Source: Candidatus Methanomethylophilaceae archaeon
GTDB lineage: Archaea; Thermoplasmatota; Thermoplasmata; Methanomassiliicoccales; Methanomethylophilaceae
DNA length: 10,923 nt
Assembly (NCBI GenBank): GCA_023230065.1
Contig: JALNYB010000039.1
Location: 1-10,923 of the forward strand
Reading direction: 5' to 3'
Shown piece by piece: positions 4,822 to 10,494 of this stretch. Numbering within the stretch: the stretch's first letter is position 1; each line of letters begins with the position of its first letter. A program made the position numbers and the translations under genes. A model generated the notes under the pieces. The model was not told the DNA's origin. It was given only the letters and a program-made list of their open reading frames with translations, and made no database searches.

Positions 4822-5217
4822 ATGAAGACCCCATGTGAGATCGTTGTTTGGTATGTGCTTCCTACGATCAGAAGGGAATTGGCAAGAGAATTAGTTGATT
4901 TCTATGGAATGAAACAGGCAAAAGTAGCAAAATTATTTGGTGTTACAGATGCGGCTATCTCGCAGTATCTTAAGAATAAGAGAGGAGATAGTAGCTTCAT
5001 AGAACAGAGTGAGCAATACTATGTGTTTGAGAAGGAGATCAAGGATTCTGCGAAATTTATTGCGGAAGGTACTTCTGATATCTCCGTAGAGATGTGCAGG
5101 ATATGTGGTATTGTAAAGGATATCGGTCTTTTGGCAGAGATATATTCAGATAATACGCATGTCCCAGCACCGGCATGTGCATGGGGAGATCACGGATTCG
5201 TAAAAGGTCCTATATGA
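4822..5217 (+). CDS. Archaeal XRE-like HTH transcriptional regulator (COG2522 type), cysteine-containing
   Basis: A 131-residue protein resembling the archaeal predicted regulators of COG2522, which start with the same kind of sequence (MKTPCEIVVWYVLP, residues 1-14). Residues 31-54 are a helix-turn-helix: KQAKVAKLFGVT, then a recognition helix AAISQYLKNKRG. The C-terminal half has a CRIC pair (Cys92, Cys95). With Cys5 and Cys119 this makes four cysteines that could bind a metal or Fe-S cluster or sense redox state; that is inference. The ATG at 4822 fits the conserved family start and lies one TATA spacing downstream of 4792-4799. The last nine codons overlap the 3' end of the convergent ogg gene by 28 bases. 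The DNA target is unknown; the flanking lhr and ogg genes are the obvious candidates. Confidence 0.85.
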   Translation: MKTPCEIVVWYVLPTIRRELARELVDFYGMKQAKVAKLFGVTDAAISQYLKNKRGDSSFIEQSEQYYVFEKEIKDSAKFIAEGTSDISVEMCRICGIVKDIGLLAEIYSDNTHVPAPACAWGDHGFVKGPI

Positions 5218-6002
5218 TCACTGTGGTAAAGGAATTCCTGAGCGTATCCAGCATATTTGCCGAATTTATCTCTTCCGAATTGTGACATTTTATGATATGT
5301 TCCGGTTACACCATAACACGATTCGAGGCAATTGGATATACGAGCATCGACGGGGAATGCTTCCAAATGATCGAATGCGAATAATGCAACACAGTCAGCT
5401 ACTTTTGGTCCGACCCCATTGATGGTCATGAGTTCTTTTGTGCATCTTTCATAGTCCATTTCTGATATGGTGTCAAGGTCAATTTCCCCGTTTTCAGTTC
5501 TTTCTGCGAGTTCTATGAACCTATTCTCTCTGAAACCGAGTTTACACATTTTTGTATTTTCTTTTTTGTCCAAGATCTGTTTTGGTGTTGGAAATTCACG
5601 TCTTTTTCCGAGATCAGTTCCGAAAGTGTCGCATACAGCTTCTGTCATCTTTGCAATGCGTTTTATATTGACGTTGGTAGCAAGGACATATGTTGCAAGG
5701 CATTCCCATCTGTTCTGCCTTAAAATCCGGAGTCCTGGACAGGCTTTAGACAAGTTTGCGACATAAGGGTCTGAATTTGATATATCTTTTATTATTTCGG
5801 CAAGATCATCTTCATTTCTAAAATATTTCAAGAGTTTGTTTTTGTCGGAGGACCCGCTGCAATCGAAGCCGTTCTCCGTTTGAGTAAGGGTCACAACCTC
5901 ATTACCTAGTACACCTTCCCAAGAATTGGCCGTTTTTCTCCAACGATGAGCTTGTCCACAGCCCAAAGTTGGATCTAAAGAGACATCGAGTTCGATATGC
6001 AT
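5190..6002 (-). CDS. ogg: 8-oxoguanine DNA glycosylase/AP lyase, OGG1 type
   Basis: A base-excision repair enzyme that removes 8-oxoguanine from DNA and cleaves the abasic site by beta-elimination. The 270 residues show the OGG1 plan. The N-terminal domain carries GQAHRW (16-21; GQSFRW in human OGG1). RQNRWECLATYVLA (95-108) and NIKRI (112-116) lie in the helical core, followed by a helix-hairpin-helix GVGPKVADC (196-204) and FPVDARI (216-222). Lys200 matches the catalytic Lys249 of OGG1, and Asp219 matches Asp268. The many cysteines (15, 48, 88, 101, 124, 153, 187, 204 and others) are unusual but unexplained. The ATG at 6002 has a strong TATA box 18-28 bases upstream and no Shine-Dalgarno, so the mRNA is probably leaderless. 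It stops with TGA, converges with and overlaps the HTH gene by 28 bases, and diverges from the endonuclease IV gene. Confidence 0.9.
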   Translation of the reverse strand: MHIELDVSLDPTLGCGQAHRWRKTANSWEGVLGNEVVTLTQTENGFDCSGSSDKNKLLKYFRNEDDLAEIIKDISNSDPYVANLSKACPGLRILRQNRWECLATYVLATNVNIKRIAKMTEAVCDTFGTDLGKRREFPTPKQILDKKENTKMCKLGFRENRFIELAERTENGEIDLDTISEMDYERCTKELMTINGVGPKVADCVALFAFDHLEAFPVDARISNCLESCYGVTGTYHKMSQFGRDKFGKYAGYAQEFLYHSDHIGPFTNP

Positions 6003-6192: not shown

Positions 6193-7002
6193 ATGAGATT
6201 TGGTCCCGCAGGATATCCGACTAAAGGAAAAACACCAGAAGGTTCGCTTTAGTATACGAAAGAGATTGGGTTGAATGCTTTAGAAGTAGAGTTTGTTCGC
6301 GGAGCAAGGATAACTTCAGAGAGGGCAAGGATTCTCGGCGCATGTGCAAAGAGTTTAGACATAAGACTTAGTTGTCATGCGCCGTATTTCATAAGTTTTA
6401 ATTCAGAGACCCAGGAAACTCGCGAGAAGAGTATCAATTGGGTCATGGATACGGTCCATGCAGCTCACGAAATGGGCGCTTATATAATTGTTATTCATGC
6501 AGCATCATACGGAAAATCTCCAGAGACAGCGTTACCTTCAGTTATTGACGGACTTACAAAATGCAAGAATATGATGGATGATGAGGGCATCGAAGATGTT
6601 ATTCTTGGTGTGGAGACGATGGGAAAGAAAGGTCAATTCGGCACTTTGAAAGAGATCGGTCAGGTTATGGAACATGTTGATGGAGTTTATCCGGTTCTCG
6701 ATGTTGCACATGTTCATGCAAGAGGTATCGGGTGTCTTAAAACAAAGAAGGATATGCAAGATTTGACTGACGAGTTTTTTCTGCTTTGTGGAAAAACTGC
6801 ACATTTTCACATAAGTTGTATAAAATATGGGGAAAAAGGAGAGATATCTCATCTTCCTTTGGATGTAAAGGAACCTGATATGCAAAATCTTGCAGATGTA
6901 CTGGCAGATTCAAAACGGGATTGTAATTTTATCTGTGAGTCACCTTTGATGGAAGAGGATGCAGTAGTGTTCAGGAATATGTTTCCTAAGTACCGCCAAT
7001 GA
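6193..7002 (+). CDS. nfo: Endonuclease IV-like AP endonuclease with in-frame TAG (probable pyrrolysine) at codon 20
   Basis: A TIM-barrel enzyme of the AP endonuclease 2/endonuclease IV family, which cuts DNA 5' of abasic sites using bound metal. Read from the ATG at 6193 with TAG (6250-6252) as a sense codon it has 269 residues. The N-terminus MRFGPAGYP, followed after the TAG by YTKEIGLNALEVEFVRG, fits the archaeal family without a gap. Metal-ligand candidates follow the family order: His62 (CHAPY), His102 (IHAAS), Glu141 (GVETMG), Asp170 and His173 (LDVAHVH), His206 (FHIS), His220 (ISHLPL), Glu249 (CESP). The equivalent of E. coli Asp229 is not obvious. A start at TTG 6271 would lose the first strand and helix of the barrel; the next in-frame ATG, about residue 85, would also lose His62. 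There is no clear Shine-Dalgarno. It stops with TGA, 41 bases before the tRNA gene. A pseudogene or sequencing error at TAG is the alternative. Confidence 0.82.
6250..6252 (+). other. In-frame amber codon, candidate pyrrolysine site
   Basis: TAG at codon 20 of the endonuclease IV-like gene, in the context CTT-TAG-TAT. The residues on both sides fit the protein family in one continuous frame, so no frameshift or indel is needed to explain it. In the predicted fold it lies at the start of the first barrel helix, away from the metal-binding residues, where family members vary. Whether it is decoded as pyrrolysine depends on pylT/pylS in the genome, which are not in this window. Confidence 0.65.
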
Positions 7003-7043: not shown

Positions 7044-7118
7044 GCCACTGTGGCTCAGCGGTAGAGCGGCAGTTTCGTAAACTGTCGGTCGAGGGTTCAA
7101 TTCCCTCCAGTGGCTCCA
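7044..7118 (+). tRNA. tRNA-Thr, anticodon CGT, with encoded CCA end
   Basis: A full cloverleaf can be folded by eye. The acceptor is GCCACTG/CAGTGGC (7 pairs); the D arm is GCTC/GAGC with loop AGCGGTA. The anticodon stem is GCAGT/ACTGT (one G-T pair) with loop TTCGTAA. The variable region is CGGTC, and the T arm is GAGGG/CCCTC with loop TTCAATT. The anticodon CGT reads the threonine codon ACG. The discriminator base is T (7115) and the CCA tail is encoded (7116-7118), with no intron. The gene ends 5 bases before the end of the convergent thiC gene. Confidence 0.95.
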
Positions 7119-7123
7119 TAATT

Positions 7124-8434
7124 TCAACAGTCTTCTTTTTTCTTACTATCGGCGATATGGTCTTCTTTGATCAAGTATTGGTTGACTATCTTCACGGCAC
7201 ATACATCTCCACACATAGAGCATCCATCTTTTTCTTCTGTGCATCCGCGTTTTCTGTATCTTCTTGCTTTCTCGGGGTCTACACACACTTTATACATCGA
7301 TTCCCAGTCTAACTTCTTTCTTGCTTTGGCCATTGTGATATCCTGATCGAAGTTTTTACCTCTGCAGATGTCTCCAACATGGGCTGCGATTCTAGATGCG
7401 ATTACACCTTCTCTCACATCGTCTTCATCGGGCAATGACAGGTGTTCCGCTGGCGTAAGGTAGCAAAGGAAGTCTGCGCCATTCTGTGCTGCGATAGCTC
7501 CTCCTATGGCGCCCACAATGTGATCATAACCAGGCGCTATGTCTGTGACCAAGGGGCCAAGGACATAGAACGGGGCGTTATGACAAAGGCTTTTTTCCAG
7601 ATGCACATTCATAGGGACCTGGTTCAATGGAACATGTCCAGGGCCTTCTACCATGCTTTGAACGCCTGCTTCTCTTGCTCTCTTAACTAAATGACCCAGA
7701 GTCATCAATTCTGATAGTTGTGCCTGGTCTGAGGCATCTGCGCAACAACCAGGTCTGAATCCATCACCAAGTGACAATGTGAATTCATATTTTCTAGCAA
7801 GTTCAAGTAGATAATCGAAATTTTTGAATAAAGGATTCTCATCTTCGTTGTGAAGGATCCACGCGGTGAGGAATGATCCTCCCCTCGAGACAACATCCAT
7901 GAGTCTATCGCTCTTTTTCAGCCAATCGACGGTCTCTCTTGTGATGCCGCAGTGAACGGTCATGAAATCCATTCCGTCCTTGGCATGTTTTTCTATGCCT
8001 TTGAAAATGTCGTCCTCGGTCATTTCGACAACAGCATTCTTCCTTGCTGCGGTCAATCCGGTTTGATATATAGGGACCGATCCCATCATCACGGGACATT
8101 TATCCAGCAGTTTAGCCCTTATAGCATCAATATCTCCGCCTGTGCTGAGGTCCATTACTGCATCTGCACCATATTTTACGGCAATGTCAAGTTTACGGAG
8201 TTCGCTATCTACATCTACGATGTCTCTCGATGTTCCCAAGTTCACATTGATCTTGATTGACATCCCTTCTCCGATCGCGCCGAGTATAGGGTTGTGTTTT
8301 GGATTACAAGGAACGCAGATACGTCCCGCTGCAATCCCGTTCCTTACGAATTCTTCACTGACCTTCTCTTTTTCAGCGATCTTCTTGATCAGAGGGGTGA
8401 TGCCTCTGCGGGCCTCTTCCATAATGGTGCTCAT
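7124..8434 (-). CDS. thiC: Phosphomethylpyrimidine synthase ThiC (radical SAM; short archaeal type)
   Basis: ThiC rearranges aminoimidazole ribotide to hydroxymethylpyrimidine phosphate, the pyrimidine half of thiamine, using a 4Fe-4S cluster and S-adenosylmethionine. The 436 residues match the short archaeal form, without the bacterial N-terminal domain. Recognisable motifs are MDLSTGGD (94-101), GSVPIYQ (118-124), SRGGSF (183-188), SLGDGFRPGC (221-230), VEGPGHVP (262-269), TDIAPGYDHI (297-306) and YLTPAEHL (325-332). The cluster motif near the C-terminus is C405-SM-C408-GDV-C412, i.e. CX2CX3C, where bacterial ThiC has CX2CX4C. The paralogue 5-hydroxybenzimidazole synthase (BzaF) has the same size and fold and cannot be excluded by eye. 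No Shine-Dalgarno precedes the ATG at 8434; ATG at codon 5 is an alternative start. No TPP riboswitch motif is visible in the leader. It stops with TGA, is convergent with tRNA-Thr and divergent from gyrB. Confidence 0.9.
   Translation of the reverse strand: MSTIMEEARRGITPLIKKIAEKEKVSEEFVRNGIAAGRICVPCNPKHNPILGAIGEGMSIKINVNLGTSRDIVDVDSELRKLDIAVKYGADAVMDLSTGGDIDAIRAKLLDKCPVMMGSVPIYQTGLTAARKNAVVEMTEDDIFKGIEKHAKDGMDFMTVHCGITRETVDWLKKSDRLMDVVSRGGSFLTAWILHNEDENPLFKNFDYLLELARKYEFTLSLGDGFRPGCCADASDQAQLSELMTLGHLVKRAREAGVQSMVEGPGHVPLNQVPMNVHLEKSLCHNAPFYVLGPLVTDIAPGYDHIVGAIGGAIAAQNGADFLCYLTPAEHLSLPDEDDVREGVIASRIAAHVGDICRGKNFDQDITMAKARKKLDWESMYKVCVDPEKARRYRKRGCTEEKDGCSMCGDVCAVKIVNQYLIKEDHIADSKKKEDC
7131..7141 (+). 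terminator. Oligo-T terminator of tRNA-Thr, inside the thiC 3' end
   Basis: TCTTCTTTTTT follows the tRNA by 12 bases on the plus strand. T-rich runs on the non-template strand are the usual archaeal intrinsic terminators, without a needed hairpin. Read on the other strand the same bases encode the Lys-Lys-Glu-Asp part of the ThiC tail, so one stretch serves two genes. Confidence 0.5.
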
Positions 8435-8488
8435 TTGATATCAGGAGGGAATTGCCTGTACGCTATTTCAGACTTTGTTCTGCTTCTC

Positions 8489-8528
8489 GCGTGCGCGCAC
8501 ACGCATTAAATATTACGTGTGCGCACGC
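8489..8528. repeat. Paired alternating purine-pyrimidine palindromes between thiC and gyrB
   Basis: Two GC-rich elements flank an AT-rich core. The left tract (8488-8506) alternates purine and pyrimidine for 19 bases and contains the perfect palindrome GTGCGCGCAC (8491-8500). The right tract (8514-8528) alternates for 15 bases and contains GTGCGCAC (8519-8526). The two are also inverted repeats of each other: GCGTGCGC (8489-8496) pairs exactly with GCGCACGC (8521-8528), and CACACG with CGTGTG, apart from a 2-base bulge. The arms bracket the likely thiC TATA box and touch the gyrB TATA box. This suggests a shared operator or a Z-DNA-prone element. Confidence 0.7.
8505..8515 (-). promoter_or_regulatory. 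Candidate TATA box of thiC
   Basis: Minus-strand TAATATTTAAT sits in the AT-rich core between the two palindromes. A transcript start about 25 bases downstream, near 8484, would leave a leader of about 50 bases before the ATG at 8434. No better TATA-like sequence lies at leaderless spacing. The leader has an 8-bp palindrome, TGATATCA (8436-8443), just before the start codon, of unknown meaning. Confidence 0.4.
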
Positions 8529-8529
8529 T

Positions 8530-8540
8530 TTTATATATAT
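8530..8540 (+). promoter_or_regulatory. TATA box of the gyrB-gyrA operon
   Basis: TTTATATATAT begins one base after the right palindrome arm. It predicts a transcript start near 8560 and a leader of about 30 bases. The TFB-recognition position would fall inside the palindrome, so a protein or altered DNA structure there would compete directly with promoter recognition. Confidence 0.6.
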
Positions 8541-8564
8541 CACCAGGGCTTATGGAAAAATAAT

Positions 8565-8583
8565 GCATATTTCATATGCGGAG
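8565..8583 (+). promoter_or_regulatory. gyrB leader inverted repeat abutting the Shine-Dalgarno GGAG
   Basis: GCATAT (8565-8570) and ATATGC (8574-8579) are perfect inverted repeats around the loop TTC. The ribosome binding site GGAG (8580-8583) follows at once, with 9 bases to the gyrB ATG. This Shine-Dalgarno decides the gyrB start. The small, AT-rich stem could also be a DNA-level binding site. Confidence 0.45.
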
Positions 8584-8589
8584 TTGTAA

Positions 8590-10494
<1,905 letters not shown>

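Follow-up and report, generated by a model that had tools for sequence, protein, structure and literature searches.

The stretch of DNA analysed here, a window of 10,923 nucleotides, contains a protein-coding frame in which a TAG codon lies close to the start, which raises the question whether this codon ends translation, reflects an error, or is read as pyrrolysine (Pyl). The frame, on the forward strand (6193..7002), runs from the ATG at 6193 to a TGA terminator at 7000..7002 and comprises 269 codons, corresponding to a product of 269 residues if the TAG is read. The TAG, a putative pyrrolysine codon, is codon 20 (6250..6252), and no other in-frame stop is present within 6193..7002, as had been described in the reading of the sequence alone that first drew attention to the gene (hereafter the sequence-only reading). 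Gene calling under table 11 places the start at a TTG downstream of the TAG (6271..6273, forward strand), giving a product of 243 amino acids; the shortened form encoded by the window is represented in a protein database by the entry P0002.

The product is probably an endonuclease IV-type DNA repair enzyme. It scores 99.7 bits against PF01261 (AP_endonuc_2), whose cut-off is 31.1, while its 49.5 bits against the NCBIfam model TIGR00587 (endonuclease IV, Nfo) are below the cut-off of 129.65; the protein, here called Nfo-like, stays under the cut-offs of the curated Nfo models. A structure predicted from 29 sequences is a TIM barrel (pLDDT 88.2), in which strand 1 corresponds to residues 2-6 and helix 1 to residues 15-24, with residue 20 inside the first barrel helix. 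Its variability among homologues places this residue presumably on the surface. When the model was searched with Foldseek, endonuclease IV ranked first (best match 4hno, E 2.1e-13, TM 0.80), while VIA-align 2 returned a tie between Nfo and an isomerase. The product resembles Nfo in being a TIM barrel, in its top Foldseek match and in the order of its likely ligands, and differs from it in its low identity to the Nfo structures listed (14-21%) and in its TIGR00587 score; the assignment to endonuclease IV made in the sequence-only reading is consequently kept as probable. Eight residues (H62, H102, E141, D170, H173, H206, H220 and E249), which we take, from what is known of E. coli Nfo, to be the metal ligands, show no variation across 29 aligned proteins and follow the order of the Nfo ligands. 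The earlier statement that the ligand motifs are present in order is supported by all eight, but only H62, H102, D170 and H173 are identical in the alignment to a solved Nfo.

A divergent ogg-like 8-oxoguanine glycosylase gene lies on the reverse strand (5190..6002), 190 bases from the Nfo-like gene, and such a neighbour would fit the repair role of the predicted AP endonuclease. In 20 relative loci, the two genes are separated by less than 0.7 kb in 16 and by 1.2-5.1 kb in 3; in the remaining one (G084) no ogg-like gene was found in the stretch searched. Downstream, a tRNA-Thr(CGT) gene (7044..7118, forward strand) is located between the Nfo-like gene and thiC, an arrangement also seen in genome G032. 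The window further encodes ThiC and GyrB, the beginning of GyrA and a large protein resembling helicases, the last two named from reading of the sequence, and a small protein with a weak match to Cro, under its cut-off. None of six window genes ends in TAG.

The best genome match to the window is UBA328 (G001), a Methanomassiliicoccaceae archaeon. In trees that place the window among up to 17 genomes, it groups with Methanomassiliicoccales relatives, as the sequence-only reading had assumed, the nearest being UBA328 and G032: it is sister to these two with a support of 0.869 for the Nfo-like protein, 0.989 for the helicase and 0.998 for four joined proteins (ThiC, Nfo-like, ogg and helicase). 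In the ThiC tree the window pairs with G032 alone, and in the gyrB tree it is set apart from both genomes. The window GyrB (8593-10494) is nearest to that of G057, followed by G059 and others (84%, 83%), with just 75-77% for UBA328 and G032. The latter two sit together on a long branch of the gyrB tree, which points to faster change there or to gene exchange. In-frame stops were also flagged in thiC of relatives, and many of them resemble alignments overrunning the terminator.

Homologues of the Nfo-like protein were compared on 120 listed of 600 found; P0002 is one of the 120, leaving 119 for comparison. All 119 share the same start methionine, in alignments that span codon 20, and the N-terminal motif MRFGPAGYP is invariant among them, barring one residue in one protein. 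Residue 20 is variable in the same listed set (E in 52, K in 30, R in 27, Q in 7, N in 2, S in 1). A near-full orthologue, with at least 62% identity, is listed for 83 of the 147 genomes of the order, and only two of the 83 were flagged for stops, neither at codon 20. For G030, the flagged TGA comes after 264 residues aligned stop-free; for G031, an internal TAG initially considered as a parallel case was rejected, as direct reading identified it as the gene's own terminator, and this genome has no PylS over the cut-off.

Codon 20 is AAG (Lys) in both UBA328 and G032, and a TAG is found at this position in none of the 57 ortholog loci examined (several loci per genome). Retention of the TAG in relatives, an alignment check proposed by the sequence-only reading, is therefore not seen, and neither is the conservation of UAG among orthologues expected of a functionally required pyrrolysine. 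Among the sequences examined the TAG appears private to the window. Since the two nearest genomes carry AAG, one A-to-T change is enough to produce it, and the simplest history would be a single AAG to TAG change on the window's branch.

The same observations could be read as an artefact of sequencing or assembly, or as a null allele of low frequency, in a gene truly encoding lysine (AAG): the codon is a single base away from that of both nearest genomes and the TAG is absent from every other sequence examined. The frame, however, is otherwise clean, and P0002 is the representative of a cluster of three member sequences on six contigs, which suggests that the shortened call arises in several assemblies, at least two, and counts against a one-off assembly error, with the caveat that the members may differ in length and that the window may itself be among the six contigs. 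On balance an error or null allele is considered unlikely.

That the TAG terminates, the product being either the 243-residue protein started at TTG 6271 or a fresh pseudogene, is what standard gene calling would imply. The structural model argues against it: as predicted by the sequence-only reading, a start at TTG 6271 would delete the first barrel strand, and with it helix 1 and the near-invariant MRFGPAGYP. Moreover, codons 1-19 are still constrained. Their dN/dS between the window and UBA328 is 0.06, inside the range of the other ortholog pairs; beyond this segment synonymous sites are saturated in most window-containing pairs. The window's gene differs from that of the more distant locus L003 at 57 amino-acid positions, and its two closest relatives differ from it at 55 and 59, indicating no acceleration of the window's gene. 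Taken together, these data suggest that the gene is apparently selected as a whole, with what appears to be ordinary purifying selection on both sides of the TAG, in agreement with the conserved character noted in the sequence-only reading. Homologous product is thus found on both sides of an in-frame UAG, as is asked of a pyrrolysine-containing protein, and termination at this codon is judged very improbable.

Reading of the TAG as pyrrolysine depends on the presence of the pyl machinery. No pyl genes lie within the 10,923 nucleotides of the window. PylS was detected over its cut-off in 91 of the 147 genomes of the order, both nearest genomes included. In G032 (one contig of 1,516,968 bases) a tRNA-like stretch with the anticodon CUA directly precedes pylS, followed by pylB, pylC and pylD, all three over their NCBIfam cut-offs; judged by eye against the known M. 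alvus tRNA, we take this stretch to be pylT, which completes the pylTSBCD set. ARAGORN reported no pylT either in seven pylS loci or in the whole G032 sequence, motif scripts gave no match, and no tRNA match is listed there by Rfam. A mtmB gene with one in-frame TAG is present in both UBA328 and G032 and serves as a positive control that TAG is decoded. By analogy with these relatives, we infer that pyl genes are present in the window's own genome.

Some further features of the G032 locus were recorded. Its pylB (L127:6865-7923) ends in TAG, with 24 further open codons beyond; that of L037 also ends in TAG, while most others end in TGA. A role of the TAG-ended pylB as a feedback signal was considered and rejected, as only two of 14 pylB matches are TAG-ended, one of the 14 reaching the end of its locus stop-free and two being the same UBA328 gene. 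Rfam PYLIS_3 (mttB) and PYLIS_2 (mtbB) are matched over their cut-offs in G032 at L127:15527-15626 and 16900-16999; PYLIS_1 matches in L127 and L047 remain under the cut-off.

TAG is sparingly used as a stop in the two nearest genomes. Among ORFs of at least 200 amino acids, TAG closes 13 of 970 in G032; in UBA328, of which 807,453 bases were read, it closes 13 of 514. These shares of about 1-3% stand against a TAG share of stop triplets of 20% and 17%, respectively; the TAG-ended ORFs of G032 include methyltransferase genes interrupted by their in-frame TAG. Other genomes bearing PylS, represented by 15 syntenic loci, have 10 TAG-ended ORFs among 104, about the same share as in 80 kb of two genomes lacking PylS (G111 and G118; 5 of 51), so that sparse TAG termination characterizes the two nearest genomes and is not general among relatives with PylS. 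As a comparison, the genomes without PylS are weak, because the sample is small, its GC content is higher and a similar share is found in PylS-bearing loci.

A constrained gene, with AAG, pyl machinery and sparse TAG stops in the nearest genomes, makes pyrrolysine at residue 20 the best reading, and the UAG at codon 20 of the predicted Nfo-like gene is very probably read in this way, as initially proposed. The codon would be decoded by the general tRNAPyl/PylS system of the cell, and the product would be mainly full-length, with 269 residues and Pyl in the first barrel helix, possibly along with some 19-residue termination product. Pyrrolysine, a lysine derivative, would then occupy a site that is lysine in both UBA328 and G032, and we infer its incorporation there from these data. 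The AAG to TAG change would have occurred, by one A-to-T substitution, in a lineage decoding UAG and rarely stopping on it, and may have been close to neutral.

Other in-frame TAG codons were searched for in G032, in comparison with 807,453 bases of UBA328 and other loci; a first scan, dominated by antisense matches, was replaced by a filtered one. In our judgement, convincing in-frame TAG codons occur in G032 only in methylamine methyltransferases, the other spans resembling upstream or antisense matches, so that G032, the nearest relative with a complete genome, may have few extra Pyl genes. Separately, in G084, a genome bearing PylS, a single in-frame TAG lies within the N-terminal part of gyrB (L065, about 8157-10034). 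This is the only stop-flagged gyrB among the matches listed, gyrB being matched in 142 of the 147 genomes, and may represent either a further instance of pyrrolysine or a faulty assembly.

The sequence-only reading had also linked repair capacity to pyrrolysine supply. In general form, this would mean that the amount of active AP endonuclease depends on the Pyl at residue 20 or on how efficiently the UAG is read, so that base-excision repair in this lineage tracks pyrrolysine (methylamine) supply, whether selected or not. This is improbable: the TAG is private, its site is variable and holds AAG in the nearest genomes, and no PYLIS-type element is recognizable, since the 100 nucleotides after the UAG fold no better than shuffled sequences (z -0.05, 88 of 200 shuffles equal or better). 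A selected control point, yielding the full-length repair enzyme only when pyrrolysine is plentiful, is extremely improbable, given that, although so early a UAG would make termination nearly cost-free, the TAG is not conserved, residue 20 varies and the downstream RNA has no unusual structure. A special role of pyrrolysine in repair, or a control by its supply, is unsupported beyond the presence of the codon.

The preferred reading, pyrrolysine at residue 20, can be set beside known systems. The UAG of the methylamine methyltransferases is a conserved codon for a catalytic Pyl. MtmB, MtbB and MttB resemble the present case in that genomes of a similar kind decode their UAG; unlike theirs, the UAG of the window appears private and falls at a variable helix position. 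A published UAG in another non-methyltransferase gene is similar in that neutral evolution has been offered for it, and differs in the enzyme concerned; that explanation was reportedly tested experimentally, whereas the Nfo-like case is known from sequence alone. A report of 2025 is said to describe archaea in which every TAG codon is read as pyrrolysine. In the open literature, outside which most subscription journals lie, no paper pairing pyrrolysine with endonuclease IV was found.

The closest parallels come from the same archaeal group, where TAG also occurs in genes outside methylamine use, such as cas1. For 'Candidatus Methanomethylophilus alvus', 16 additional Pyl candidates are reported, with TAG making up 1.6% of stops (PMC4153887), and for ISO4-H5 46 in-frame amber genes, including methyltransferases, hypothetical genes and insertion elements (PMC5011839); unlike the present case, an endonuclease IV-like entry appears neither among the Table 7 entries compared from the former nor among the named genes compared from the latter. 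Other in-frame UAG genes being already known in these archaea, the window is a further example of a known phenomenon and leaves the picture of the pyrrolysine code unchanged. It extends the catalogue of in-frame UAG genes other than methyltransferases in these organisms by a probable Nfo-like repair gene, with a clean step from Lys (AAG) to UAG between relatives, and a case where standard gene calling removes a core barrel strand. As for the lists of M. alvus and ISO4-H5, the TAG appears to reflect near-neutral drift under a genetic code tolerant of this codon.
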